Part shown: positions 1,301 through 26,952 of the stretch, in pieces
Numbering within the stretch: position 1 is the stretch's first letter
Layout of the letters: each line of letters starts with the position of its first letter
Assembly: GCA_913062595.1 (NCBI GenBank)
Contig: CAJXWT010000018.1
Span: 1 to 32,181, forward strand
Length of the DNA: 32,181 bases
Source of the DNA: an uncultured Fidelibacterota bacterium
GTDB lineage: Bacteria > Fidelibacterota > Marinisomatia > Marinisomatales > TCS55
Reading direction: 5' to 3'
The notes under the pieces: generated by a model
The model's database searches: none
What the model saw: the letters and a program-made list of their open reading frames with translations, nothing else
Told to the model about the DNA's origin: nothing
Translations under genes and position numbers: made by a program

Positions 1301-4300
1301 ATGAATAACCCGCAATCAACCCATTCTCAATACCTTGAACGCCTATTTGATACTCAACCTACAGCTAATGATCTTTTTGCAAAAGCGAGTCAGATAAAAG
1401 ATTCAAACCCTAATCAGAAGGAACTACACGATTTTCTAGAATTAGGGCATTTATCGATCGTAAATAAAACTATTTCCGAAGCAAATAAAATTGAAGAATG
1501 GTTCGAGATAATTCACGAATTAATACTTGAATCTAAATTAACAGTCGGCCATTTGATCAACCAGCGAGTGCGATATTATGGGGATAAAACATGTTTCCAG
1601 GTAATTGATGGAAATCAATTACGCAAATTCACTTACCAGGGAATATGGAACCAAATCATTCAAATTGGTCAGGCACTTTGCGCTATAGAATCAATATCAG
1701 ATAAAAATACAACGATTGGTATATTTACAGAGAATTCGATTCGTGGTGCGCTGATTGACTTAGCTTGCCTTTCATTTCATATACCGATAGTGCCGATACC
1801 AGTTACAACTACTCCAGATCATCTGGCATTCATTATTGAGAATTCAACCATTACTCAATTATTTATTGGTGAACTATCGGTGCAGGCTATTCTTAGAGAA
1901 TCAAAGGTTGAACAAAAATCGTTGGATATATATCACCTCGATGACCCTGCAGAAGCTATTATCTTTGCTAAATCCTGGGAAAGTTTCATCTCACAAGCGG
2001 TTGATTTTGATGATATAAATGTGCTAAAACGTATCAACCAGTGCACTATGAATGATCTTGCCACAGTGATGTATACCTCAGGCACAACTGATGAACCAAA
2101 AGGAATTATTTTCACCCAAGAAAACATAGTAACCAAACGTTTTGCCCGTGCCTTGGCACTCCCCGATTTTTCATGTGACGATATATTCCTTTGCTTTCTA
2201 CCATTATACCATACATTTGGCAGATACTTTGAGCTATTGGGGTCTATTTTTTGGGGCGCAACCTATACATTCGCTGAATCTCCATATTTTAAATCACTAT
2301 TAAAGGACTTTCAGCTGACAAAACCTACCATTTTTATTAGTGTACCAAAAAGATGGATACAATTGATGGAACACACAGATTCAATTAAATCTGTTGGTCA
2401 TGGAGAAGATCAAGAAATCAAAAATATCGTGAACCAAATTACGGGCGGAAACTTGAAATATGGACTTTCGGCTGCTGGTTATTTGGACCCTGATGTATTT
2501 CATTTTTTTCAGGGCAACGGAATCAACCTTTTAAGTGGCTATGGTATGACCGAAGCAACTGGTGGTATCACGATGACGCCTACCAATGATTACCAGCCTG
2601 ATTCCGTAGGTGTACCATTACCCGGAATAAAACTTGCTTTAGGTGATGATGGAGAATTACTTATCAATGGGCCGTATGTATCATCGTCATATTTTGGAAA
2701 ACAAAACTACTCTAGTCTAGTCAATGGTTGGTTTCACACTGGAGACATATTTAATAAAAAACATGATCATTATTATATAATTGACCGTAAAAAAGAAATC
2801 TACAAAAATAGTCGCGGTCAAACCATCTCACCGCAAAAAATTGAAAACATGTTTCAAGATTTTGATGGAATAAAATCAGCATTCCTCGTGGGGGATGGTT
2901 TAGAATTCAATACTTTGCTTATTCATCCAGACTCAGACAGCCTGCCTATGGATATTTCCAATGCAAGCTTAGTTACAATTCGCGAATACTATAGTTCTCT
3001 GATTCAATCGGTGAATAGTTTCCTTACGCCATTTGAACGCGTGATCAATTATGCAATAATTAAACGTGATTTTAATTCAGATGAAGAACTGACACAAAAG
3101 GGAACGTATAAACGAAAACAGATTTTGAAGAATTTCCACGAGATAATTAATCCCATGTACCAGAAAAATCATATCACCTTATCATATAAAAATTATCAGG
3201 TCCATATCCCAAATTGGCTCCTGCGGGAAAAAGGTGTCAGTAGAAATGATGTAAAATGGAATGGTTCGAAAATATCCATTAAAAATAATAAGATCAGTCT
3301 AAAGTTATCATGGGAGAATTCCAGGCTGGTAATTGGTGATTTTACTTATCATACGCGGGAAGACAGTCTCGACCTCCAGGAATTACTCCTGAGTCCAGAA
3401 TTATGGTTAGGCAACAACACGTTCGCAGACTTCATAGGCAAGAGTGCATTTCGATTAACAAAATTTGAACCAATAAAAAATCTGCAGCTGGCATTTCCAT
3501 CAATGATCGTCAATGCTGATAAAGATATACAAAATATTGTGGATTCAGTCAGTTTGCCTGATCTTGGCGATCTGCATAAAGCAACCAGACAATTATATGC
3601 TGGGCATTTAAGCGGTTTTATACCATTTAACTATTTACTGGCATCTAATTATGGTGACCTCACTAGAATTGCATTCAATATTTTATTAAGCTTTAGAAAT
3701 CATTCTGATCCATCTTTTCGTATGAAAGCTATGGAAGCGATGCTACCGGAATTATCAGGAGAACTATTTTTTGAATTGTTATCTGGGGCTCACCAGCGGC
3801 ATTATGAAGACAAATCAAAAAATGGATTCACAGTAAACGTAGAATTATTAAAAGACAATCATTTTGAGGCCATTTTGTCGAAACTTGATCAATTCAGGAA
3901 GGATATTGACAGTATCATAAAAGAGCAATTCTCCTTCATCCAGATATTATTACCAATTGTTGCGAACTATGGCCTTCAACACCCCACAAAATATATCTGG
4001 GCTCGATCAGAATTATATTGGTGGCAAATTTCAGATTGCCCAAAAAGAATCATTTCATACGCTCAAAAAGCACAATATAACCTGGTAAACGGTTTTCGAT
4101 CCTGGATCGGACCAAACCGAAAGTTGGCCATCAACCGTGAAAATAGTACTGAATATACTTGGAAAGATGTAATTGTATTTGACGAACTGGTAAAACCTGA
4201 ATTACGAGAAATGATAGTATCAGCGGTAACCAATACAGCTGTTATCAGAGAATCAATATTTCTTTTCTATGATCATCGTTTAATAGAATTAAACGATATA

Positions 4301-5920
4301 CAACCAGATGGTGTATGGATCACCTTCCTGGGGAAAAACCATGGTAAAAGCGTATTGCGTATTTTGGTTCAAACCAGAGATGATGAAGCGTATAATTTTG
4401 CCATCAATATAAATGAAGAACATGAAAAAAAATTCATGGAAGAGGAGATTAAATGGCTGGTAATAATGGGATCATCTATTCATGGACAAAAATTTGTTGA
4501 AGAATTTGGCGGTTATTGGCCCGAATATAATCTATATACCGAAGAATATATTCCCGGAGAAACTCTCCACCAATATCTCGAACGAAATAGAAATGAAATC
4601 GAGGAAAATTCGGCTCCAGATCGCTGGCAAATGCGTTGGCTTCATTTTATATGGAGTGGTGCAGCTGCTTACATCAATTTCTGGTGGCGTTCTGATAAAA
4701 AGGTTAGAATTGGTGATCCTTCTCCAAAAAACTTGATTATTCCTGAACACGATTATGCATCCGGAACAAGGTTGATTTCGATTTCTAATCGAAAAAATAC
4801 AACGGGAATTGCAAATCTACTTTTTAGTATCTATGGAGAATTTATTGAAGACACAGAAAATCATTACCCCGGTTTAAAACGAATGGCTGATTGGGAATTA
4901 ATCTTCTCGGTAATATTACAAGTAGCAAAAGTCAAATATGGAATACCTATAATTGCACAGTTTAAAGAAGAATTAAACAAAGACAAGACCAAACACAGGA
5001 AAGCCAAGGAATATGGTTTAACTAATGATCGAATTGATGATTTTGTCCATGAAGTGAATAATGATGGAGTACTGACTAAACGAATGGTTTTCGCCGCATT
5101 GCGATACGAGCGCTGGCTAGATCTAAACCAAAACGCAACATTACAAGCACGGACAACTATATTGCAGGAATTGTACCAGGATTATAACCTTGGTGACCTG
5201 TTATTAGAATATCCTGAAACTCGGGTAAGATTTTTTCTTATGACCTGTTTGAAAGATTCACGCCCGGAATTAAAGGATTTATTATGGGAATTACTGCGTG
5301 ACTTGCGCGCCAGAAAAGTAACCGAAGATAGTTTACAGAATAGACTTCATCACATCCATGAAAATTTAAAAGTGAACGATGAAGAACAATATTTTCTTAC
5401 TCACCTGGTGTTTAAGCATCTGGCGGCTGCAGATTTTATTGAGCTAGTAACAATGGATAAAGGAGAACGTGGCCGTATTGATCTGGTTATGTTGTGTGAA
5501 GATAATGAAGGCAATGGTTATAGAATACGGCCACCTTTTCACCCCAAGGAGATCGCCCGTTTCCATTCCTTATTAATTAAATCAAACCTTGAGCCTGTAT
5601 TTCAGGGAAATCATGAATTCCTGCTGATATTCGACATGAAAGATCGACTAGTTGGAGGCGTATATTGGAAAGAATCAGAAAAAACTAATATTGTTCATTT
5701 TGAGTGGATTGTTATTCGCTCAAAATATAGAAATAAACATTTAAGTAACCAGCTTATGGATGAACTAATGAGCAGGTTAAGGAATAAAGGTGTTCAATAC
5801 GTTATAGTTGGATTCTTCCAAGAAGAATTTTTCTATAAACACGGTTTTAAAATAGATAAAAATTTTGGTGGTTTGGTTAAAGATATTCAGCTGGGCGTTC
5901 AAGCAACATCACCAGTATAA
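1301..5920 (+). CDS. Giant fusion: acyl-CoA ligase-like + kinase-like + GNAT acetyltransferase
   Basis: This is a single 1539-residue frame with no signal peptide, so presumably cytoplasmic. Residues about 75-620 are an ANL-family adenylating enzyme like long-chain acyl-CoA synthetases. The P-loop YTSGTTDEPKG starts at 258, the A5 motif YGMTE at 414-418, HTGD at 479-482, and IIDRKKE follows. At the A10 site the sequence is KGTYKR (600-605), with Thr where the usual Lys sits three before Arg. Residues about 620-980 are unrecognised and partly helical. Residues about 985-1230 resemble an aminoglycoside-phosphotransferase/kinase fold: EEYIPGETL, then GDPSPKN (1138-1144) like the HGDxxxxN loop, but no clear metal-binding Asp follows. 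Residues about 1405-1539 are a GNAT domain (KYRNKHL at 1475-1481, FYKHGF at 1511-1516). Substrates are unknown; joint acyl activation and transfer is inference. Confidence 0.8.
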   Translation: MNNPQSTHSQYLERLFDTQPTANDLFAKASQIKDSNPNQKELHDFLELGHLSIVNKTISEANKIEEWFEIIHELILESKLTVGHLINQRVRYYGDKTCFQVIDGNQLRKFTYQGIWNQIIQIGQALCAIESISDKNTTIGIFTENSIRGALIDLACLSFHIPIVPIPVTTTPDHLAFIIENSTITQLFIGELSVQAILRESKVEQKSLDIYHLDDPAEAIIFAKSWESFISQAVDFDDINVLKRINQCTMNDLATVMYTSGTTDEPKGIIFTQENIVTKRFARALALPDFSCDDIFLCFLPLYHTFGRYFELLGSIFWGATYTFAESPYFKSLLKDFQLTKPTIFISVPKRWIQLMEHTDSIKSVGHGEDQEIKNIVNQITGGNLKYGLSAAGYLDPDVFHFFQGNGINLLSGYGMTEATGGITMTPTNDYQPDSVGVPLPGIKLALGDDGELLINGPYVSSSYFGKQNYSSLVNGWFHTGDIFNKKHDHYYIIDRKKEIYKNSRGQTISPQKIENMFQDFDGIKSAFLVGDGLEFNTLLIHPDSDSLPMDISNASLVTIREYYSSLIQSVNSFLTPFERVINYAIIKRDFNSDEELTQKGTYKRKQILKNFHEIINPMYQKNHITLSYKNYQVHIPNWLLREKGVSRNDVKWNGSKISIKNNKISLKLSWENSRLVIGDFTYHTREDSLDLQELLLSPELWLGNNTFADFIGKSAFRLTKFEPIKNLQLAFPSMIVNADKDIQNIVDSVSLPDLGDLHKATRQLYAGHLSGFIPFNYLLASNYGDLTRIAFNILLSFRNHSDPSFRMKAMEAMLPELSGELFFELLSGAHQRHYEDKSKNGFTVNVELLKDNHFEAILSKLDQFRKDIDSIIKEQFSFIQILLPIVANYGLQHPTKYIWARSELYWWQISDCPKRIISYAQKAQYNLVNGFRSWIGPNRKLAINRENSTEYTWKDVIVFDELVKPELREMIVSAVTNTAVIRESIFLFYDHRLIELNDIQPDGVWITFLGKNHGKSVLRILVQTRDDEAYNFAININEEHEKKFMEEEIKWLVIMGSSIHGQKFVEEFGGYWPEYNLYTEEYIPGETLHQYLERNRNEIEENSAPDRWQMRWLHFIWSGAAAYINFWWRSDKKVRIGDPSPKNLIIPEHDYASGTRLISISNRKNTTGIANLLFSIYGEFIEDTENHYPGLKRMADWELIFSVILQVAKVKYGIPIIAQFKEELNKDKTKHRKAKEYGLTNDRIDDFVHEVNNDGVLTKRMVFAALRYERWLDLNQNATLQARTTILQELYQDYNLGDLLLEYPETRVRFFLMTCLKDSRPELKDLLWELLRDLRARKVTEDSLQNRLHHIHENLKVNDEEQYFLTHLVFKHLAAADFIELVTMDKGERGRIDLVMLCEDNEGNGYRIRPPFHPKEIARFHSLLIKSNLEPVFQGNHEFLLIFDMKDRLVGGVYWKESEKTNIVHFEWIVIRSKYRNKHLSNQLMDELMSRLRNKGVQYVIVGFFQEEFFYKHGFKIDKNFGGLVKDIQLGVQATSPV

Positions 5921-13734: not shown

Positions 13735-16700
13735 TTACCATTCTTCATCTTCCCATTCGTCTTCATCTTCAGTTATAAAACCATAGCCCTGGCTTTCAAT
13801 ATGAGCCTTTACAATCGCTGAAACATCTTCTACCCCTTCAAGCCCCCACATCCAATCCACAAGGGTATATAACATCGCTGTAGTGTCCCCAACAAAGGTA
13901 GCAACCTCGGTACCCCAGTATTCTATAACATCATTAATGGGCTCATCAACAGGAATGTATGGAGCAGGCATTTTCGTGCCAGGCATAACAGATTGTGGAT
14001 TATTAAACCATTCAATCAGCCAATCTGGTCGCAGGCGTTCTTTGGTCAACACCAGGTTTGGTGCCCAGGTGAGGGCATCTTGCCGCGGTTTCATGGCTCC
14101 ATAGAAATGACAGTTTATACAAGCACCTTCTTCTTGAACTTTTTGACCAGCTAAATATGAATTAGAAGCTTGTGAAAAACTGTGAGGATTCTCATAGGTG
14201 AGGGACAGACCATCTTTTGATTGAAAATAATCAATTACACCATTCCATTCCTGATGGGTAAAATCATAACTAGGCATCCGCACCTGTAAATGCGGTCGTA
14301 TCATCGATACATTTTGGAACCAATCCAATAACCAGTCCGGCTGAACTTTCCGACCTTCGGTATTCAATAATGGAGGGCTAAAACTCTGTACCAGGCTTAT
14401 ATCTTCGGAATTTTCAGATCCCGCAACTTCCCCAAGCCAAGCTGCAGTTGCCGTCCAAATTGCGCCACCTTCACCATCAATTTTATGGCAACCAAGACAA
14501 TTATTTGTATGTATGAATCGTTCACCTTTTGTTACCGCTAAATAAGCAGGTGTTTTTTCTGGAAGTTTACTCTCGGGGATTTCATCTTTTACCAGTCCCA
14601 TTATCAAGGTTACTAAGGCATCGATTTCTTTATCCGTTAACCCGTAATGTGGCATCCGAGACTTATCTAATGAAGGTAATTCCTTAACTGCATAAGTACC
14701 ATCGTCATTTGGTATGAGGTCGAAAGTTTCCGGCTTATCAACCTTAGCATAAAACCAGTCCCATTTTGTATGCGGTATTTCATCATGCCAAAACGCAAAA
14801 TCAAGCTTAGAGATTAATTTACTCCCTTCAACATTGAGGGAAGTCCCAATTGGTTTTTTACCTTCAAATCCAGCAATATTATGGCAGGAGTAGCAACCAT
14901 AATTCCCAATAAGCTTCTCACCAGCATAATTGAGCTTTTCAGAAATTTCCATATCTTCCAACCGGCGAGCAACCTGATCTTGGCGTAATAACTGGGAAAG
15001 AAAATCTGCAGAAATCCGATCAACTATTGATTCGTTGACACTGGGTACAGCTAATTGATCAAACGTTTTATTTTTATCAGCTAATAAATATGCAGCAATA
15101 TCGGCAGCTTCCTGGTCACTTAATCGCAGATTCGGCATCTTTGTATCTGGATGATAACTGTAAGGATTCTTCAACCAACCTAATAGCCATTGTCTATTTA
15201 CTTTTGATCCCAAACTTATGAGGTTTGGCCCCTGTTCAGTTCGTATAGCGTCAACAGATGGATCATATTCAGAATCTGGTTCGGGCTGAATTTGATGACA
15301 ACCTTTGCATCCCAGAGAATTAACCAGAACCCTGCCCTTTTCTTGGTCTCCGGCATAATCAACGTTAGCTGTTTTATATGGTGTTGCTGTAGAGAATAAG
15401 TATTCGGTCATTGCGAGAACTTCTTGCTCAGTTCGTTTTAGGTCTTCAGGATCACTATTATTTCCTTTCTTAAAAAAATGCGGCATCCAGGTGTTATGTC
15501 TGAATGAACGTGGCTCAAAGATCCATTTATATGTCCAATCTTTATTTGTCTTTGAAGCCAAATGGTAAAGACTAGGCCCCGGTTTTGGTAAATCATTCCA
15601 ACGGTCAACCTGATGACAAGCATAACAACCTGCTTTTTCAAAAACAGACAAACCAAGACTTAATGTTTCTGCTTCTTTAAGCGGCATATTACCACTATGA
15701 CATTTATAACAACCTGCTTCTGTATACCTTTTAGGCAGCATGGGGTTTTCCCAGTAATGCATTGGTTCCCAGCCTAATTCTTTTTCCCAACGATGGGCCG
15801 TTTCTTGATCATTTGGACTATGAGCTGTTGTATAGAATCTAGTTCCTCTTCCTCTTCCTGCATGACATGACGTGCACCCAAATTCACTTAGCGGGTGCGC
15901 TGAACTAGGTCCAACAATAAAATCCAATTTGGGGTGGGTTTTGTATGGCTGAGGTGCATCTTCGAAACCAGCTTTATCAATTCCTACATGACAAGTCATG
16001 CAACGATCCACCTTTGGCATACCCATGTAAATTAGGTCTTCTTCCAGGCCCTTAACTACGACCTGCTTTACCTCATAATAGGGATCAATAAAATCGATTA
16101 CAGGTAAATCACGTACTATGTTTCCAATTTTGTTTGCGAAAGACATTGCTTCTGGGTCAACCTTTGTCAACCTTCGTTTTAAAAGACTGTTCTCGCGTGT
16201 TAACGTTGTTAATGAATTTTTTGCTTCATCAATATATTTTCTAATTTTCCGCTCTTGGCTTTTGACAGTTTCAATTCTACTCTCCGTTTCTTGTACATCT
16301 AAGTAGTACTTATTCACATGTATGTTTAAACCGCCATATTCTTCACCTGCATTTTCACTGCCTCCATGACCAAATTGACTTTTTTCATATTCATATTTCA
16401 AAACATCCAAATCAGCCTTGGCAAATTGATAGAGTTGATTATTTTTATAAAGCTCTGCATCCAGTATTTCCAATTGCTGAACAATTTCATCTAATTCGTT
16501 CTGACGGACAGTCAATTTCTTTTCTGCTGCAGATAGCTCTTCAACCAGCTGATTGTAATTAGAATTTTTTTCAAGGGCAGCTGACTCTGCATATAAATCC
16601 TGGCGGATTTTTTCTATTTCCAGTTTACGAAATTCTATTTGGTATTTTTTCCAAGGTCTTTGAAAATCATAAACAAATACCAGTATCCAAACAGCAAAAA

Positions 16701-16773
16701 ATACTAAACTTGAAATTGCAAAAGCGCGATTGAGCTTGAGTATATTATAGTGTCTTTCCTGATTATCCGCCAT
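13735..16773 (-). CDS. Membrane-anchored coiled-coil octaheme cytochrome c
   Basis: A 1012-residue protein. Residues about 15-36 form one membrane anchor. Residues about 45-205 are strongly heptad-like and charged (coiled coil). The rest is periplasmic with eight CxxCH heme sites, first Cys at 258, 300, 355, 383, 489, 627, 759 and 885. The later ones sit in cytochrome-c-like modules with downstream Met-containing segments (for example DTKMPNLRL, GTKMPAPYIP). The C-terminus is acidic and ends EDEWEDEEW. It begins 9 bp after the cytochrome b C-terminal-half gene, in the position of cytochrome c1, which is otherwise missing. It probably takes electrons from the Rieske protein and passes them to the oxidase. 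Large multiheme cytochromes accompany bc complexes in several phyla, but I do not recognise a named family with this stalk. Confidence 0.9.
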   Translation of the reverse strand: MADNQERHYNILKLNRAFAISSLVFFAVWILVFVYDFQRPWKKYQIEFRKLEIEKIRQDLYAESAALEKNSNYNQLVEELSAAEKKLTVRQNELDEIVQQLEILDAELYKNNQLYQFAKADLDVLKYEYEKSQFGHGGSENAGEEYGGLNIHVNKYYLDVQETESRIETVKSQERKIRKYIDEAKNSLTTLTRENSLLKRRLTKVDPEAMSFANKIGNIVRDLPVIDFIDPYYEVKQVVVKGLEEDLIYMGMPKVDRCMTCHVGIDKAGFEDAPQPYKTHPKLDFIVGPSSAHPLSEFGCTSCHAGRGRGTRFYTTAHSPNDQETAHRWEKELGWEPMHYWENPMLPKRYTEAGCYKCHSGNMPLKEAETLSLGLSVFEKAGCYACHQVDRWNDLPKPGPSLYHLASKTNKDWTYKWIFEPRSFRHNTWMPHFFKKGNNSDPEDLKRTEQEVLAMTEYLFSTATPYKTANVDYAGDQEKGRVLVNSLGCKGCHQIQPEPDSEYDPSVDAIRTEQGPNLISLGSKVNRQWLLGWLKNPYSYHPDTKMPNLRLSDQEAADIAAYLLADKNKTFDQLAVPSVNESIVDRISADFLSQLLRQDQVARRLEDMEISEKLNYAGEKLIGNYGCYSCHNIAGFEGKKPIGTSLNVEGSKLISKLDFAFWHDEIPHTKWDWFYAKVDKPETFDLIPNDDGTYAVKELPSLDKSRMPHYGLTDKEIDALVTLIMGLVKDEIPESKLPEKTPAYLAVTKGERFIHTNNCLGCHKIDGEGGAIWTATAAWLGEVAGSENSEDISLVQSFSPPLLNTEGRKVQPDWLLDWFQNVSMIRPHLQVRMPSYDFTHQEWNGVIDYFQSKDGLSLTYENPHSFSQASNSYLAGQKVQEEGACINCHFYGAMKPRQDALTWAPNLVLTKERLRPDWLIEWFNNPQSVMPGTKMPAPYIPVDEPINDVIEYWGTEVATFVGDTTAMLYTLVDWMWGLEGVEDVSAIVKAHIESQGYGFITEDEDEWEDEEW

Positions 16774-16782
16774 ATTATTAGA

Positions 16783-17901
16783 TTAGAAATTGAAAAAATA
16801 TTCTGGGATAGCGATTATATACTTTAGGTTAAACATCCAGCGTAGATACATTTTTATTGGCAGTGTTATAGCAATAAGTATTAGTACTATAAAAACAGAA
16901 TAACGTACTGAACCTAATCGTGCATACATATCTTTCAGGAATGTTTTTGCGAGGAGGGGTGGTAGAATGAGAAAGTAACCTAGTAATATTGATATACCCC
17001 AAATCTCACGTATAATAATGCTATCTGGTAATCCTTTGTTTAGCCATTTTATATAAATTATTTCAGAAACGTTTATGTTGGTTAGCGCTTCTAATTTGTG
17101 GATATCCCAATATTCGAATGGACCGAAGATATTCCAGTTAGGACCTCTTAAAAATGTGCCAACAATGATAAGCATTAACCATAGCACGAGCCAACCAAAC
17201 ATAAATACAGAAATTGCTAATCGGCGACGGTTGTAGCTAAAAAATCCGGAATTTTCAGGATTGCGATCAATGTATGGTATGGCCATTAAACCTACAAGAA
17301 TTAGACTTGGAATTACCACACCAGCCATCCAAGGATCAAAATACACCAGCATCTCTTGCAGGCCCAAAAAATACCATGGCGCTTTTGCTGGATTTGGCGA
17401 TTCCGTGGGGTTGGCGGGTTCTTCAATTGGAGCAGGAAGCCCTATTGACCAGACAAGCAAAAAAGCAGAAGCAATAATTAATGATATTAGCTCAACATAG
17501 ACTAAATCCGGCCAAACCAGTACTTTATCATTGGGCGCTTCAAAATATTCATTGGGTTTTTCTCCAGCATTAAGCCTTTCATCGTTTTTATATGCTTGGT
17601 TCATGGCTAACCAGGTAAAAAATGCCACCAGAAATATCAGACCTGATATGGGTACATTATCTGGTTTTAGTACAATCTTTTGAAAGTTGTAATCACCAAG
17701 TCCATACATGAAAAACGCCACCATGCCAAGCATCGCAATGACGATAAATTTTGTACCCCATAAATGATGTAATCCTAGGCGCCGGTGCCATTTTTCAAAC
17801 CAATCACTTGGAGGAAAGATAAATGGAAAAACTAAAACAACTGTTGTAAACAGTATTGTCGGGTTTGATATATAATTTACAATTTCCTTAAAGGAGTCCA
17901 T
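16783..17901 (-). CDS. Cytochrome b C-terminal half (subunit IV-like, extended)
   Basis: A protein of 372 residues, more than twice the length of PetD (about 160). Two or three extra N-terminal membrane helices (FIVIAMLGMVAFF, ISGLIFLVAFF) precede the core helices that form the quinol oxidation site. The Qo motif reads A-P-W-Y-F (P175, W176, Y177) where PetD has P-E-W-Y-F, so the Glu is replaced by Pro. More helices follow, ending near FNLKYIIAIPEYFFNF. I use the ATG at 17901, 2 nt after the cytochrome b stop; a TTG at 17946 is in frame but would overlap cytochrome b by 43 bp. With the preceding gene it forms a split cytochrome b of the b6/IV kind. The substituted Qo motif may tune it for a low-potential quinol such as menaquinol (inference). 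Confidence 0.9.
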   Translation of the reverse strand: MDSFKEIVNYISNPTILFTTVVLVFPFIFPPSDWFEKWHRRLGLHHLWGTKFIVIAMLGMVAFFMYGLGDYNFQKIVLKPDNVPISGLIFLVAFFTWLAMNQAYKNDERLNAGEKPNEYFEAPNDKVLVWPDLVYVELISLIIASAFLLVWSIGLPAPIEEPANPTESPNPAKAPWYFLGLQEMLVYFDPWMAGVVIPSLILVGLMAIPYIDRNPENSGFFSYNRRRLAISVFMFGWLVLWLMLIIVGTFLRGPNWNIFGPFEYWDIHKLEALTNINVSEIIYIKWLNKGLPDSIIIREIWGISILLGYFLILPPLLAKTFLKDMYARLGSVRYSVFIVLILIAITLPIKMYLRWMFNLKYIIAIPEYFFNF

Positions 17902-17903
17902 TA

Positions 17904-18698
17904 TCAAACTGGTGTTGAGATGCCACCATCTTTTCTTACCCGCCAAAAATGTATCGACATGAAAATCATTATTATAAAAGGTAAGCCAATGCAGTGCAGC
18001 ACATAGAATCGAAGTAATGCAGCCTCACCCATAAAACGCCCGCCAATTAATGCAAATCGCGCATCACTAGCCATGGTGATGAAATTAATATCTCCTATTG
18101 CTAGTAAAGAGGCTCCAGGTCCTTCATGACCTAGAAATGGTGCTGCGCGAGCCATATTTGAACCTACTGTAATGGCCCAGATTGCCAGCTGGTCCCATGG
18201 TAATAAATAACCGGTAAAACTTAACATAAGAGTCAACAACAAAAGGATGACGCCAACCGTCCAATTGAATTCCCTTGGCGGTTTATACGAACCTGTCATA
18301 AACACTCTAAACATATGCAGCCAAACAGTAATAACCATGGCGTGAGCACCCCAACGATGTAACTCACGCATAATGCCAAAGGGCACCTGTTCAGCAAGAT
18401 CAATAATATCCGTATAGGCATATTCAATTGTTGGGCGGTAATAAAACATGAGCAGAATACCTGATATCGTAAGAATCAGGAAGATGAAGAAAGAAAGACC
18501 ACCCATACACCAGGTAAATTTCAGTTTAACGGCATGTTTAGGCAGTCGCACTGGGTGAAGATGGAGAAACACAGAATTCAATACGGACATCATGCGCTGG
18601 CGTCGATTTCGTGGTACGCCTCCACCACGGAAAATAGATTTCCACACTTGTGATTCTGCTGCTTTTTCTAAAAATGATTTTTTTGTTTGTTCAGCCAT
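17904..18698 (-). CDS. Cytochrome b, b6-type (N-terminal half)
   Basis: A 264-residue protein with four core membrane helices. Two bis-His heme pairs are visible: His114 and His128 (HRWGAH ... WLHMFRV, spacing 14), and a second pair in LHCIGLP ... SIHFWRV with spacing 15, the b6-type spacing. The signature SFTGYLLPWDQ and the end VRKDGGISTPV match cytochrome b6. Cys64 in WCMGG aligns with Cys35 of cytochrome b6 (YCLGG), the covalent attachment site of heme ci/cn. I use the ATG at 18698; an in-frame GTG at 18710 directly after the Rieske stop is possible, and neither has a clear ribosome site. The basic N-terminal extension (GGGVPRNRRQR) is cytoplasmic. Confidence 0.95.
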   Translation of the reverse strand: MAEQTKKSFLEKAAESQVWKSIFRGGGVPRNRRQRMMSVLNSVFLHLHPVRLPKHAVKLKFTWCMGGLSFFIFLILTISGILLMFYYRPTIEYAYTDIIDLAEQVPFGIMRELHRWGAHAMVITVWLHMFRVFMTGSYKPPREFNWTVGVILLLLTLMLSFTGYLLPWDQLAIWAITVGSNMARAAPFLGHEGPGASLLAIGDINFITMASDARFALIGGRFMGEAALLRFYVLHCIGLPFIIMIFMSIHFWRVRKDGGISTPV

Positions 18699-18710
18699 AT
18701 TTTTTATCAC

Positions 18711-20408: not shown

Positions 20409-23400
20409 TTACTTAACTAAAATCATCTTTTTCGAATCAATATAATTATCCGTCTTCAATTGATAAATATATACGCCGGCACCCATTTTATTACCCATAC
20501 CATCTCTCGCATCCCATACAATTGTCTTTAATCCTGGCGCCTGTGATTCGTTCACCAGACTTCGGACCTGGCGGCCAGCAAGATCATAAATGGTTAATTT
20601 TACTTTTGATTTTTCTGGTAAATCATACTGAATCACTGTTACAGGATTAAATGGATTCGGATAATTCTGGTATAGTGTATATCGATTTGGCAAGGCAATA
20701 TCATCGATGGTTCCTAATGCAATACTGAACACACCATATCCTGTGGCGCCAACTGTTACTTCATCTGTATTTTCATCTCTGGCAGTTACATCACCAAAAA
20801 ACAATCCGAGATGGCCACCAAAATAGTTCTTTCTTTGTACACTTAGCTCTAATACTGGGCCAGATCCTGCAGGGATAGCTGATCCGACCGTGTAACCAAA
20901 TATGAAGCAATTCCCATATTCGTCTTCACCGGAATTATCCAAGAGTAAACCACCAACATCCGCAAACCGGCCCGCGGGATTTACAGCCGTAACAAGCAAA
21001 CCATCAGGCATATCAATTAATAGCATTTCAAAAACAGAAATGGGTAGGATATTATCAAGACTGATTGTGACAGTTTCCGTGGCATATCCCGACATAGTTA
21101 TATCTGCATCGAGAGAAAAATGTGCCATTGGTGTGCCAACAAATACACTTGGTGAGATCACTTCAGTATACATTGGTATACTATTCGCATCCGCTACAAT
21201 CTTATCTATTTCAATAGAAACACTGTTACCTACTGGCGCTGTAGGTTCAACATACAGATAAATGTCAGCAATATGTCCCATCCCGGCTAAAATTGGATTA
21301 CTAAGCGTCAAGTCAGTAATAATAATATTATACTGGTTTCCTTCCTGATTTCCACCGAAGTACCAATCATTAAAATCCATATAATCGGTTGGTATAACAG
21401 TTACTCCACTCACATAATTTGCTTCACTGCTGAGCGAAAGTTGAATTGCTGAAACTGGTTGGGTATTGCTGATCATAAGCGGTACTGTAATTCCATCTCC
21501 AGGATTTGCCACCGCATTTGGTATCGCTAGAACCTGGGTTTCAACACTCACCTCAAAATCTGCATCAGAACCTGTCCAGTTCATTTCAACATCATTGAAA
21601 TCTTTGATATTGCAAAAAGTGAATTCCACATCTACCATACTTGGTTCCATGCTCGCGCCGCGTACAATCACTTTACACACTGGATCACTGCCAGAAGCAA
21701 TATAACTGCTTGTGCCCCACCCTGTGACTACCATAACACCACTGGCCTCAGTAACATCAAGCGTCCATCCTTGAGTACGATTTGTCGGCAGTATTGACTC
21801 CGCAATGATATAATCAGGTTCATCAGTTATTTCAATATAGAAAAAACTTATTTCGGCCTCATTATTAATAGATATGTCAAGAGTATCAGTGTGACCAGAT
21901 AATGCACTACCATCGCTTATAGATAATTCCACCCATTCAACTGGTGTAGCATCGGCGATATTACTAGGCCCCGACTCCGTGCCTTCAGGGGAATAATCTG
22001 TTGTTACATGGTAGTAATAGGTAACACCATTCATCACTTCACTGTCAGTATATTCATATACATCTGCGCCAACACTAGCAATAAGCTGATACTCTGCAGC
22101 ATCTGCAGAGCTGCGGTATAAATTGTAACCAGAAACTGCAGGCATACTTCTATGGGACGGATAATCCCTTGATTCATCAATATCATCTTCTTGATCACGC
22201 ACATTTATTATACCCGCATCTACGAAAAATGGTAGAGATAAAGTAAAATCTTCTCGATCCTCGTAAGTAGATAATTCTTTTTCAATCGGCATGGAATTTA
22301 AATAGCTGTATTGAATAATATTGAATCGACCGTCAGATGTATTGAATGTTACGCTTTCAGATGCTTCAAATTCTCCGCCAGTTGCTATTTCAGTGCCATT
22401 GAGAACTATACGATAGTATCCTTCGCCCCAACCGCAGCATATGCCATCACCAAAACTATCATAAATTGTAAATATATACCCTCCGGATGGTATATTTAAG
22501 TCCCAGGTGTATAATGTAGCCTGGTCGACTAATTCCCCTGTAAAAATACTGGCTACTATACTATCACCATCTATATGCACCAGATCCCAACTAGTTTCAC
22601 CCGGATAATTATCAGTTAATATTTCAATGGTTAACGGTACTGTAGGAGGAATGGGTCCTACAGGTGGGTCCCAGTTTAAAGGCACTTCTCCATCCAACCC
22701 AGATACCGCGATCAAATTATGAGGTTCTTCCATGTAACCAGGGAACACTGTGACCTTACCAGTATCTAATGTTGAAATCCAATATATACCACCAATGCTG
22801 TCAGAAACGGTGACTGCATTAAAATTAATTAATACGTCACCACCATAAGCATCATTATGTATAAGGTATCTCACGTTTAAAATTGGGCCTGCACCCGGCG
22901 CTACATCATTGTTCATATCACTGTATAAAAGAATTCTGGTACCACTACCGACATCAGTAGTTGAAATTGTAAAACCAGTGGTACGGTCTGTTGCCCATAG
23001 ACTATCTATAGATATATAGTCTGGCTGATCTAGAAGATCAAACTGCACCCCACCTACTGTACCATTGTTATCCATACTCACCTGTAATGTATCCATTTCA
23101 GATACATCGCTGGTGTCTGAACTCATGCTCAGGCCTACGACATAACCGATCGAGACCATCCCATTGCCACTCATCGCACCCAAATTGGATCCACTGCTGT
23201 CGGTTACAATCAGTTCGGACATTACCAGATCAATTACAGCAGACGCAATAGCAGATCCATCAAAATGAATGGTCATTACAGTATCCGAATTAGCTGGAAT
23301 CGAAGCCGCATTACCAGCATTAAAAAGTAAAATTCGATAGGCACCAGAAGAAAGCTGGTTCATATCCGCAGCAAATCCAGCGGGAGAACCGCCAGCATTA

Positions 23401-23666
23401 ATTGAAGAAGGTGATATAATATCTGGATCAACCATCATATCGAACTGCATTCCCGATATAGTATTATTTGGGTTATTTACAATTACAGGAACTTCTATAT
23501 CTGAAGCGTATCCTGGATACTCTACTGTCCCTAATGTTACCGTTAATTGTGCGTGTAGGGCACCAATCAAAAAAGTAATGTAAAACATTAGATTCTTACT
23601 GAGTATATTGGGACAGTACATTTTTAATTTATAAATATTTACCATATTATTAATTTTTGAATGCAT
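20409..23666 (-). CDS. Secreted multidomain protein: cohesin-like repeats, nested FN3, T9SS-type C-terminal domain
   Basis: A 1085-residue protein. A long n-region precedes the signal core FYITFLIGALHA, with cleavage expected before Gln40. Five divergent cohesin-like beta-sandwich modules lie at about 41-172, 175-308, 577-700, 705-848 and 850-985. They share patterns such as PDYI followed by TxRTxGWTL. Between modules 2 and 3 an FN3 domain starts at 313 (NLIAVSGLDGEVPLNWDPP) and resumes at about 508-575 (SGYNLYRSS ... GPSNIADATP); the gap holds a domain with YDSFGDGICCGWG (Cys410, Cys411). Residues 992-1085 are a sorting domain (YPNPFNP, GAGVYIYQL, KMILVK) of the type IX/FlgD-like class. AAGGA 5 nt before the ATG supports the start. 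It is presumably surface-displayed; the ligand is unknown. Confidence 0.88.
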   Translation of the reverse strand: MHSKINNMVNIYKLKMYCPNILSKNLMFYITFLIGALHAQLTVTLGTVEYPGYASDIEVPVIVNNPNNTISGMQFDMMVDPDIISPSSINAGGSPAGFAADMNQLSSGAYRILLFNAGNAASIPANSDTVMTIHFDGSAIASAVIDLVMSELIVTDSSGSNLGAMSGNGMVSIGYVVGLSMSSDTSDVSEMDTLQVSMDNNGTVGGVQFDLLDQPDYISIDSLWATDRTTGFTISTTDVGSGTRILLYSDMNNDVAPGAGPILNVRYLIHNDAYGGDVLINFNAVTVSDSIGGIYWISTLDTGKVTVFPGYMEEPHNLIAVSGLDGEVPLNWDPPVGPIPPTVPLTIEILTDNYPGETSWDLVHIDGDSIVASIFTGELVDQATLYTWDLNIPSGGYIFTIYDSFGDGICCGWGEGYYRIVLNGTEIATGGEFEASESVTFNTSDGRFNIIQYSYLNSMPIEKELSTYEDREDFTLSLPFFVDAGIINVRDQEDDIDESRDYPSHRSMPAVSGYNLYRSSADAAEYQLIASVGADVYEYTDSEVMNGVTYYYHVTTDYSPEGTESGPSNIADATPVEWVELSISDGSALSGHTDTLDISINNEAEISFFYIEITDEPDYIIAESILPTNRTQGWTLDVTEASGVMVVTGWGTSSYIASGSDPVCKVIVRGASMEPSMVDVEFTFCNIKDFNDVEMNWTGSDADFEVSVETQVLAIPNAVANPGDGITVPLMISNTQPVSAIQLSLSSEANYVSGVTVIPTDYMDFNDWYFGGNQEGNQYNIIITDLTLSNPILAGMGHIADIYLYVEPTAPVGNSVSIEIDKIVADANSIPMYTEVISPSVFVGTPMAHFSLDADITMSGYATETVTISLDNILPISVFEMLLIDMPDGLLVTAVNPAGRFADVGGLLLDNSGEDEYGNCFIFGYTVGSAIPAGSGPVLELSVQRKNYFGGHLGLFFGDVTARDENTDEVTVGATGYGVFSIALGTIDDIALPNRYTLYQNYPNPFNPVTVIQYDLPEKSKVKLTIYDLAGRQVRSLVNESQAPGLKTIVWDARDGMGNKMGAGVYIYQLKTDNYIDSKKMILVK

Positions 23667-23907: not shown

Positions 23908-26900
23908 CTAGGCTTGAGTATATCCGCGGTTTAGATAATCCTGGAGTTTTTTGTACTTTACTGTTTCCCGATTACCGCTTGGACTGATTACCTCTATTTT
24001 TTCATTTCGCCCAATCTTTTTGTCTGCGGTTATTGGTTTTCGTATTGCTTGCTGAGGACGATTTTGAGCTTGAGCAGCCTCTGGTGGACCTGTAAAACCA
24101 AGATTAGTTGAATCTTGGTGCTTCATTTGCACATTGCGGGCTTGACTGGTCTGCACTTGCGGGGCCTGGTCCATACCTTGAATCTTCGTCCGAAACAACC
24201 GCTGTAATGTTATTTGGGTCGTGTCGGCCATCATTTCCTTGAACATATAGAAACCCTCTGACTTATACTCCAGTAGAGGATTCTTCTGACCGTAAGCTCT
24301 GAGGTTGATTCCTTCTCTAAGCTGATCCATTGCGTATAAATGGTCTTTCCATTTTTCATCAATGGTTCGCAATACCACGAATCGCTCAAAACCCCGCATT
24401 ACATCCTCAGGCAATAATGACTCTCGAGCAGAATATAAATACATGGCTTCATCAACAATTTTTTTCTTGAAATGTTCAGCGTCATATTCATTATCGAATT
24501 TTTCGTGATCAATTTCAGTCAACAGAACCGATGAAAAAATCTGTTCCAAACCCTCCCAATCCCATAATTCATGGTTTTCTTCATCTTGACCGCCTAATTC
24601 ATCATCAACAAAATCGGAAATTAATTCTGGAATAGTATTATGCAAATTTTCTCCCCGTAACGCATTATTGCGAATATCGTAGACTACCTGCCGCTGTTGG
24701 TTCATCACATCATCATATTCTAAGAGATGTTTCCGAATACCAAAATTTCTTCCTTCTACTTTTTTTTGCGCATTTTGTATGGCCCTGGTCACCATCTTGT
24801 GCGTGATTACTTCTCCCTCTTCAATCCCCATACGATCCATTATTGATGCAACTTTTTCGGAATTGAATAGACGCATCAAGTCATCTTCAAGACTCAGATA
24901 GAATCTTGATGAACCCGGATCACCTTGACGTCCAGAGCGGCCTCGTAACTGCAAGTCTATCCGGCGTGACTCATGCCGTTCGGTACCTACGATGTGCAAA
25001 CCGCCTAATTCCTGTATACCCTTGCCAAGTTTAATATCAGTTCCCCTGCCTGCCATATTTGTCGCAATGGTAACAGCCCCTTTTTGGCCAGCACGCGCTA
25101 CAATTTCTGCTTCGCTCTTGTGTTGTTTGGCATTTAGTACATTATGGGGAATCCCACGTCGCTTTAACATTCGTGATAATAATTCAGAAGAATCGACAGT
25201 TACAGTTCCAACGAGTGTAGGTTGACCATTCTTATAACATTCGGCAATTTCTTCTATCACTGCAGCATACTTCTCACGTTTTGTTTTATAAATCAAATCG
25301 TCTCGATCGTCTCTTATGACACTACGATGGGTGGGGATTGCTACTACATCCAAATCATAAATGCTGCCCAGTTCTTCCGCTTCTGTCACTGCAGTACCAG
25401 TCATGCCGGCAAGTTTGTCATACATACGAAAGTAATTTTGGATTGTAATTGTTGCCAGCGTTTGAGTTTCGCGTTCAATCGTAACATTTTCTTTCGCTTC
25501 CAGAGACTGGTGAAGACCATCGCTGTAGCGTCGACCAGCCAGGATTCGACCTGTGAACTCATCCACAATCTGTACTTTGCCATCTTGAAGGACATATTCA
25601 ACATCCCGTTCATATAATGTGTAAGCACGCAACAATTGACTGATGTTGTGTATTCGAGCGCTTTGCTCTGCATGCTGCTGATGCGCTTTTTCTTTTTCCT
25701 GTTTGATTTCTAAAGTGCTGAGGTTTTCTTTTACATCTATTTCATGCAACGTTTCGCCAAGATCCGGTATGACAAACATATCCGGATCATCGGGCGCTAA
25801 AGATTTCCGCCCCTTTTCAGTGATATCAATTACATGGGTTTTTTCTTCAATGCTAAAGTATAGATCCTCATCTACCTCATGGAGTTTTTTGTCACGCATA
25901 TATTCCGATTCAACATCGTGAGCCAATTTTTTTGTACCCTTTTCTTGAAAAATCTTAAGCAGTTTTGGATGTTTCGGCATACCTCTGTTGGCCTGCAATA
26001 GTTTCAAACCCGCTTCATCATTGTTCTCTTCATCAATAAAACGTGTCGCTTCCACCACCATTTCTGTCACTAAACTATTCTGTCTTTTGACAAGATTTTG
26101 GACCATTGGCTTGAGTTCTTTGTAGGTTGTATCAACTGGTGCATCAACGGATCCAGAAATGATTAATGGTGTCCTTGCTTCATCAATTAAAACACTATCT
26201 ACTTCATCGACAATGACAAAAGCATGGTCCCGTTGAACTTGATCTTCCGGTGCTAGGGCCATATTGTCACGTAAGTAATCAAATCCATATTCGTTGTTCG
26301 TTCCATAAGTAATATCACAATTATACTCCGCTTGTCTTTCCCTGTTATCCATTGTATTCAATATAAAGCCAACCGTCAAACCAAGGCGTTTGTATATCTC
26401 ACCCATCCATTCTGCGTCGCGCTGTGCCAAATAATCATTAACAGTTACCAGATGGGCACCACGGCCAGAAAGAGCATTCAGATACAACGGCATTGTAGCA
26501 ACCAGGGTTTTTCCCTCACCCGTTTTCATCTCAGTAACTTTGCCGCTATGAAGTACAATCCCGCCTAATATCTGAACGTCGTATGGTATCATATCCCAGG
26601 AAATTTTCTGCCCCATAATGCGCCATGATTTTCCCATAGTGCGTCTACATGCTTCTTTGACCATGGCAAATGCTTTGGGTAATATTTCATCGAGTTTTTC
26701 ATGCTCTGCATTTAGTACATATTTATCAGCTTCCTCATTGTCAGAAATATTTTCTTTGGTATATTTTTGGGCAACTTCACGAGCAGATGCTACCTCTAAT
26801 TTGAATTCCCCTGTGCGACTGATCAAATCATCGTCTGATTTTGTTTGTAGTGTCTCATAGATCGCATTGATTTCCTCCACGATAGGAATTAATGCCTTTG

Positions 26901-26952
26901 TATCGCGATCAGATTTAGTCCCGAAAACTTTTGTTAAGATTGACTCTAGCAT
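23908..26952 (-). CDS. secA: Protein translocase ATPase SecA
   Basis: A 1014-residue SecA. Walker A is GEGKT at 145-149 and Walker B is VDEVD at 248-252, followed by SVLIDEARTPLIISG. The helicase region includes TNMAGRGTDIKLG and the LRGRSGRQGDPG motif, and the helical scaffold LRTIDEKWKDHLYAMDQLRE is intact. It drives preprotein export through SecYEG. The C-terminal tail starts KIGRN as usual, but the zinc-binding CxCx8C(H/C) segment is missing, replaced by a Cys-free tail (EVISPSGNRETVKYKKLQDY). It is the last gene of an operon after nusB (15-bp gap). No clear terminator follows in the 241 bp downstream. Confidence 0.98.
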   Translation of the reverse strand: MLESILTKVFGTKSDRDTKALIPIVEEINAIYETLQTKSDDDLISRTGEFKLEVASAREVAQKYTKENISDNEEADKYVLNAEHEKLDEILPKAFAMVKEACRRTMGKSWRIMGQKISWDMIPYDVQILGGIVLHSGKVTEMKTGEGKTLVATMPLYLNALSGRGAHLVTVNDYLAQRDAEWMGEIYKRLGLTVGFILNTMDNRERQAEYNCDITYGTNNEYGFDYLRDNMALAPEDQVQRDHAFVIVDEVDSVLIDEARTPLIISGSVDAPVDTTYKELKPMVQNLVKRQNSLVTEMVVEATRFIDEENNDEAGLKLLQANRGMPKHPKLLKIFQEKGTKKLAHDVESEYMRDKKLHEVDEDLYFSIEEKTHVIDITEKGRKSLAPDDPDMFVIPDLGETLHEIDVKENLSTLEIKQEKEKAHQQHAEQSARIHNISQLLRAYTLYERDVEYVLQDGKVQIVDEFTGRILAGRRYSDGLHQSLEAKENVTIERETQTLATITIQNYFRMYDKLAGMTGTAVTEAEELGSIYDLDVVAIPTHRSVIRDDRDDLIYKTKREKYAAVIEEIAECYKNGQPTLVGTVTVDSSELLSRMLKRRGIPHNVLNAKQHKSEAEIVARAGQKGAVTIATNMAGRGTDIKLGKGIQELGGLHIVGTERHESRRIDLQLRGRSGRQGDPGSSRFYLSLEDDLMRLFNSEKVASIMDRMGIEEGEVITHKMVTRAIQNAQKKVEGRNFGIRKHLLEYDDVMNQQRQVVYDIRNNALRGENLHNTIPELISDFVDDELGGQDEENHELWDWEGLEQIFSSVLLTEIDHEKFDNEYDAEHFKKKIVDEAMYLYSARESLLPEDVMRGFERFVVLRTIDEKWKDHLYAMDQLREGINLRAYGQKNPLLEYKSEGFYMFKEMMADTTQITLQRLFRTKIQGMDQAPQVQTSQARNVQMKHQDSTNLGFTGPPEAAQAQNRPQQAIRKPITADKKIGRNEKIEVISPSGNRETVKYKKLQDYLNRGYTQA

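Follow-up and report, generated by a model that had tools for sequence, protein, structure and literature searches.

The window, by which we mean the whole stretch of 32,181 nucleotides analysed here, is one whole contig (G000:C18) from an uncultured Fidelibacterota bacterium. The gene under study encodes a protein of 1085 residues and lies between secA on one side and HEAT-repeat, Rieske and cytochrome b genes on the other. The features referred to below are as follows.

23908..26952, minus strand: secA, the upstream synteny anchor, found next to the gene at 50 of the 55 loci fetched from orthologues
20409..23666, minus strand: gene of the predicted 1085-residue surface protein (cohesin-like domains, split fibronectin type III (FN3) domain with nested DGICC domain, C-terminal T9SS-type sorting domain), from the open reading frame and domain matches
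23196..23543, minus strand: cohesin-like domain, residues 42-157, the better of two stretches matched by PF00963
22662..22739, minus strand: first piece of the FN3, strands A and B, residues 310-335 with Trp332, from AlphaFold2 (AF2) strands, VIA alignments and the excision test
22143..22661, minus strand: exchangeable insert in the FN3 B-C loop, residues 336-508, nested domain plus linker, from the comparison of orthologues
22341..22643, minus strand: DGICC beta-sandwich, residues about 342-442, eight predicted strands, pLDDT 93.3, from AF2 of the domain alone
22446..22613, minus strand: acidic quartet D352, E357, D403 and D407, a putative Ca2+ site, from family conservation
22434..22439, minus strand: vicinal cysteines C410-C411, from family conservation
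22143..22340, minus strand: linker, residues about 443-508, acidic, non-repeated and of low model confidence, from AF2 and composition
21927..22142, minus strand: second piece of the FN3, strands C to G, residues 509-580, from AF2, VIA alignments and the excision test
20412..20663, minus strand: T9SS type A sorting domain, residues 1002-1085, from TIGR04183
17904..20165, minus strand: HEAT-repeat, Rieske and cytochrome b genes, the downstream synteny anchors, from the gene neighbourhood

The two ends of the protein are assigned by family scores, with PF00963 met at 52.6 bits against a cut-off of 24.1 and TIGR04183 at the C-terminus met at 47 bits against a cut-off of 23. From the latter we infer export by a type IX-type signal, for which there are no export data. 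The same C-terminal sorting domain occurs in more than 60 other proteins of this genome, so that T9SS-type export appears to be heavily used in it. A Pfam scan of the native 1085-residue protein detects no FN3 and no RTX family. The downstream HEAT, Rieske and cytochrome b genes are also present in those relatives with enough flanking sequence. When the gene context was inspected for a system, it was shown to hold, besides secA and the HEAT, Rieske and cytochrome genes, genes of ordinary metabolism, and no partner was seen. Elsewhere in the window, positions 13735-18710 hold a Rieske gene, a split cytochrome b and a 1012-residue multi-cytochrome-c open reading frame with FixO-like and c7-like stretches, together an unusual bc-type respiratory cluster, and positions 1301-5920 hold a 1539-residue open reading frame in which an AMP-binding enzyme is fused to a C-terminal GNAT acetyltransferase.

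A first-pass annotation of this DNA had proposed that a DGICC-type domain is nested inside the FN3, and had suggested structure prediction of residues 300-580 as a check. The positions that it named are right: Trp332, the motif YDSFGDGICC at residues 402-411 with the vicinal cysteines 410-411, and SGYNLYRSS at residues 512-520. The arrangement is borne out by the AF2 model, by the superposition of FN3 structures across the gap and by an excision test. In the model of residues 300-580, built on 44 sequences, one domain lies inside another and the two do not stand in tandem; FN3 strand A comprises residues 316-320, strand B residues 328-333, and strand C starts from residue 510, with the DGICC domain and the linker between. 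The pLDDT exceeds 90 in most residues of the FN3 and DGICC parts and is poor in the linker. Single solved FN3 structures of about 95-105 residues are aligned by VIA to model residues 9-13 through 275-281, and these superpositions cover 88-103 residues with Z of 13-14.3 and rmsd of 1.6-3.0, meeting the criterion for a seven-strand FN3 fold. With no more than about 72 residues in strands C to G, such coverage requires the upstream hairpin to take part in the match, a step that is reasoned without coordinates.

The excision test leads to the same arrangement. The native split region of the window protein gives no match to Pfam fn3 (PF00041), while with the insert excised 2-81 of the 84 profile positions are matched at 17.8 bits (gathering score 25). 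The excised relative L021 reaches 29.9 bits, and three of five excised proteins with a match or near-match still fall below the gathering score. We then used a custom FN3 profile, for which 86 uninterrupted FN3s were taken from the same set of proteins. Excision yields a full-length FN3 match in all 50 insert-bearing orthologues (median 49.0 bits), against none of the 50 native forms (30.4 bits) and one of 50 when the A-B hairpin is shuffled (33.1 bits); the C-part alone scores 32.3 bits. A conserved tryptophan in strand B is a hallmark of FN3 domains. Trp332 is invariant in the 20 nested regions aligned (set A1), and the strand-B tryptophan is found in the upstream piece only.

These data also bear on the possibility of two independent tandem domains, in which the A-B-like stretch would belong elsewhere and the FN3 would begin in the linker. 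Such a layout could draw on the copies whose linker resembles an FN3 A-B hairpin, with the HMM extending into the linker in 14 of 98 phylum copies, and on the gathering score missed after excision in three of five proteins. It is at odds, however, with the alignment of single FN3s from model residue 9-13, with a restored FN3 in 50 of 50 excised orthologues against one of 50 shuffled, with the position of the strand-B tryptophan, and with the short-linker copies L021, L022 and L025, where the chain runs from the nested domain directly into strand C. We give it next to no credence, and it is rejected on the model, the excision test and the short-linker copies. The nesting of the DGICC domain in the FN3 can be regarded as real and confirmed far beyond chance, within what a predicted model and sequence comparison can establish.

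The linker had been described as a repeated acidic one. The acidity is upheld, with 15 D/E and 6 K/R among 66 residues, while the repetition is not, since the only repeated 3-mer is SMP. Among relatives the acidity is weaker, with 5-11 D/E in 12 other DG-type linkers that were delimited by script (two more were left undelimited). A separate observation is that in L023, L039, L040, L201, L207, L211 and L213 the linker after the DGICC domain resembles a decayed FN3 A-B hairpin (P.NI..L.IIE...R.L..YNIYR). On sequence resemblance, such a linker could be a fossil of the origin of the nesting.

The inserted domain had also been taken to be beta-rich, and AF2 indeed folds it alone as an eight-strand sandwich (pLDDT 93.3, pTM 0.85). 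Residue D352 is kept by 192 of 194 full-length family copies, E357 by 193, D403 by all 194 and D407 by 193. This conservation suggests a metal site, probably for Ca2+, the metal binding itself being inferred. The cysteine pair is complete in 150 of the 194 copies, absent in 32 and reduced to one cysteine in 12, where independence predicts 61 single ones; this expectation ignores the relatedness of the copies.

Searches for a known family of this domain gave little. It has no match among PDB sequences at E up to 10, and a profile of the whole region matches only the FN3 parts of PDB chains. At E up to 0.1 the window copy matches nothing in Pfam, PHROGs or NCBIfam, and 66 members searched against the same collections at this threshold give only scattered weak matches; the PHROG matches of the members in set A3 are weak and scattered. 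No CBM36 or CBM60 appears among the family matches of the 66 members (E up to 0.1), although profiles can miss distant members. The best folds found by VIA for the model are CBM60 (Z 7.1) and CBM36 (Z 6.8), over 91 and 85 residues at 13-14% identity. This resemblance is borderline, as a Z of about 7 is also reached by unrelated models, and the fold search also gave MmpS5 and other sandwiches with no clear winner. A literature search for the DGICC or GDGICC motif found no description of it. On the whole, DGICC is a widespread domain family for which curated families give no usable match: it is detected in 63 of 245 phylum genomes, and at least 580 of 588 candidate stretches scanned contain it.

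Among 98 distinct copies from the phylum, 44 are followed by an FN3 without strands A-B and 14 by an FN3 whose start the profile places further upstream, in many cases within the linker. The corresponding numbers are only 1 and 8 for the 113 copies found in other records, most of them Bacteroidota. The nesting is accordingly a habit of Fidelibacterota, and outside this phylum the domain is, on these counts, mostly free-standing.

Several other occurrences of the domain were noticed. In L205, L210, L032 and L056 the DGICC domain lies inside a different Ig-like domain (ISNSGGSNLDFDIE...[DGICC]...DDWITMNPLSGTV), so that the FN3 may not be the sole split host. A second protein of the same genome, L010 (G000:C36:7828-8109), shows two half-domains in succession, the C-terminal half of one DGICC domain and then the N-terminal half of a second, which gives the impression of truncation or permutation, and similar N-terminal arrangements are seen in L234, L236, L237 and L248. 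In viral contigs, 199 of 220 candidate stretches (L121-L200) encode a relative of the domain; in one of them, L141, the protein concerned has 765 residues and is encoded a few genes from an endolysin-like gene. Cultured phage records searched for the domain gave no match.

To compare orthologues, the genomes were searched with the cohesin part, which with an E cut-off of 1e-6 gave matches in 105 of the 245, and 55 loci were fetched. G111, G144, G138, G132 and G082 (at a contig edge) were not fetched, nor were any of the weaker cohesin matches. The relatives are represented by one genome per species, mostly as incomplete assemblies. In the phylum (Fidelibacterota/Marinimicrobia), the gene adjoins secA in 50 of the 55 fetched loci, and this synteny can be read directly from the contigs. 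Sought in homologues as the first-pass annotation had advised, an insertion is present in the same FN3 loop of 50 orthologues, and an uninterrupted, full-length FN3 match is found in two with a 2-residue loop (G183 and G184).

The domain in this loop is by no means always the same. Of 54 classified orthologues (G121b, the G121 gene on a second contig, and G142, whose contig ends within the insert, are left out), 31 carry a choice-of-anchor-J/MAM jelly roll, 11 a DGICC domain, 4 a DG variant without the cysteines, 3 an unnamed "VDDD" domain of 243-267 residues and 1, G148, another unnamed domain, while in 4 the loop is empty (2-19 residues). NCBIfam names choice-of-anchor J for 31 of 49 inserts scanned (set A4, without the window and G121b); these 31 were not matched one by one with the 31 of our own classification, whose J class includes weak members (G113 at 14 bits, G081 at 20, G213 at 21 and G080 at 25). 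Some inserts match Cleaved_Adhesin or MAM. The VDDD and G148 inserts have no match in Pfam, and neither is a known binding fold. The insert starting with LLVDDD, without Pfam match at E up to 0.01, lies in the same FN3 loop of three distant orthologues (L322, L323 and L326). Among the four empty orthologues, only G191, with a 14-residue loop, adjoins secA. The types are mixed even within genera, with three DGICC and three J inserts in genus g8, and J together with the DG type without cysteines in each of g30, g31, g33 and g36. Judged by these comparisons, the inserted domain is exchanged between orthologues at one loop, and a loop of a common scaffold accommodates entire domains that belong to at least four unrelated kinds.

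Assembly or binning chimeras might be invoked for such differences, as the genomes are mostly fragmented assemblies. Yet the reading frames are unbroken across the junctions, and the DG type without cysteines is met repeatedly, in four genera (g30, g31, g33 and g36) that belong to one family; an artefact of this kind is scarcely credible.

The history of the exchange can be followed on trees. The gene tree built without the insert requires at least 13 type changes (least possible 5; shuffled mean 21.7), and a SecA tree of 48 genomes, which leaves out G145 and others with too little SecA sequence, requires 9 (least possible 4; shuffled mean 16.8). Mosaic flanks may account for some of the 13 changes. 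The DNA of G106 and G108 is nearly identical up to the codons of W-D-A-P-F-G-P and unrelated beyond; the gene tree pairs the two, whereas the SecA tree puts G106 with G105 and G110, which makes the G106 gene a mosaic. In the pairs G128/G129, G145/G146, G133/G135 and G147/G148 the flanking protein is 71-87% identical and the inserts, at only 22-29%, are unrelated; close relatives thus differ chiefly in the cassette. At four-fold sites of G107/G109, 130 of 135 positions are identical in the FN3 and cassette against 133 of 233 outside (p 2e-18), with the edges of the high-identity stretch about 45 codons before and about 60 after the insert; for G129/G145 the cassette has 50 of 60 identical against 60 of 181 elsewhere (p 8e-12). 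The same-type control pairs G000/G076 and G105/G110 have no difference between inside and outside (p 0.55 each). Neither do the four-fold sites of G107/G108, G109/G108 and G107/G030, and no recent transfer is seen in those cassettes. The mosaic silent-site identity is a direct observation, and it shows, at the level of sequence comparison, that cassettes move between species.

The same observations weigh on an explanation by old paralogy, with ancestral copies bearing different inserts and differential loss leaving one in each genome. A few genomes do have further, weaker cohesin-region matches, as such a history would leave. But the gene is found at one place, adjoining secA in 50 of 55 loci, and silent-site mosaicism within one gene needs recombination, not loss. 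We hold this history to be quite improbable.

Split FN3s are not confined to this gene. Across the loci compared, a hairpin at least 55 residues upstream makes 78 of 120 FN3 pieces without strands A-B full-length again, compared with 0, 0, 3, 1 and 1 in five shuffled controls. The loci of this survey were picked because they contain such domains and do not form an unbiased sample. Roughly sorted, the 78 inserts comprise 19 DG, 18 PPC-like, 14 J, 9 of an 'ANAFYF' type and 18 others; the PPC-like and ANAFYF labels are patterns of our own analysis, and among the 18 others those that span an intact FN3 are doubtful. We lean towards a general reading: the FN3 B-C loop would be a socket provided by nature in the surface proteins of Fidelibacterota. 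Beside secA, recombination between conserved FN3-coding flanks would have reloaded it with unrelated domains at least 9 to 13 times, and elsewhere in the phylum other proteins would have DG, PPC-like, jelly-roll and further domains in this loop. It would be a built-in means of changing binding.

As to the role of the protein in the window, we consider it likely that the FN3 loop works as a socket in which ligand-binding modules can be exchanged, after the manner of the split domains in RTX adhesins, with the ligand binding inferred. In the mechanism that we propose, the surface protein would be exported via its type IX-type sorting signal. Its FN3, split at the B-C loop, carries a whole second domain, here the DGICC beta-sandwich, and would make this domain project laterally from the rod as a ligand-binding module. 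The loop would serve as a socket, filled by unrelated domains or none at the same locus in related species, and cassettes would be exchanged by recombination using the conserved FN3-coding flanks. A swap would change the bound ligand, most likely glycans, an inference made because of the jelly-roll and CBM-like folds, and would leave export, rod and anchor unchanged. That the DGICC insert is a presented binding module, as had been suggested for it, is plausible without having been shown; there are no binding data, and selection for changed specificity is likewise inferred. As a guess, the exchange might be driven by new partners or by escape from phages or grazers. One cultured representative of the phylum is reported to subsist on fragments from the cell walls of other bacteria (PMC11652737), and for such a life binding the polymers of other cells would make sense.

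A loop that is merely tolerant, with neutral or selfish passengers that do not decide binding, would also accept several unrelated folds, one of them not lectin-like, and would leave empty forms. However, only 4 of 54 loops are empty, the inserts remain open reading frames with conserved motifs (each residue of the quartet in 192-194 of the 194 copies of the DG family), and between families the J cassettes are better conserved than the backbones (G107/G030, 70% against 48%). Mere tolerance is in our opinion unlikely. With an exchangeable socket as the preferred reading, the locus amounts to a natural experiment with many species, one gene and one place, where the nested module alone changes on the same rod and export signal, giving a different head. 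With it, one can test how surface proteins change partners in a marine phylum that is widespread and almost uncultured.

Among known systems, the gingipain-type Cleaved_Adhesin, choice-of-anchor J and MAM jelly rolls supply the module in the loop of most orthologues, while the DGICC insert of the window matches none of these families. The Ca2+-dependent carbohydrate modules CBM36 and CBM60 are the best VIA matches of the DGICC model, but with borderline Z and no sequence family match. In animals, the insulin receptor has an insert domain in its FnIII-2 and integrin beta an I-like domain inside its hybrid domain. Both are likewise long insertions within a beta-sandwich domain; they differ in being animal receptors with a fixed insert and no cassette exchange. 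Monobodies are engineered FN3s with a varied BC loop, so that the same FN3 loop bears the variable binding part; their loops are short and engineered, whereas in Fidelibacterota whole domains are exchanged by evolution.

The closest comparison is with RTX adhesins, in which ligand-binding modules in split Ig-like domains are shown by experiment, according to the available parts of the reports (PMC12077191, PMC10865825). As described there, AhLap of Aeromonas hydrophila, FrhA of Vibrio cholerae and MpIBP have a split Ig-like domain with the module budding sideways and both its ends on one side. The window protein meets the RTX-like criterion of a module nested in a split Ig-like domain, with the differences that its host is an FN3 split at B-C and that its signal is of the T9SS type, not RTX/T1SS. 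With a T9SS sorting domain at its C-terminus and no RTX family, it would work like an RTX adhesin, but it is not one. Its orthologues exchange the module, whereas for the RTX adhesins exchange is not mentioned in the accessible portions of PMC12077191 and PMC10865825, the former having no occurrence there of "recombination" or "swap". No such exchange was found in the literature on FN3 insertion, the BC loop, domain replacement by recombination and Marinimicrobia T9SS, as far as these sources were open to us. Nested ligand-binding modules are thus known from RTX adhesins; at the locus beside secA, as the orthologues indicate, it is in the same gene and at the same place that the nested module is changed.
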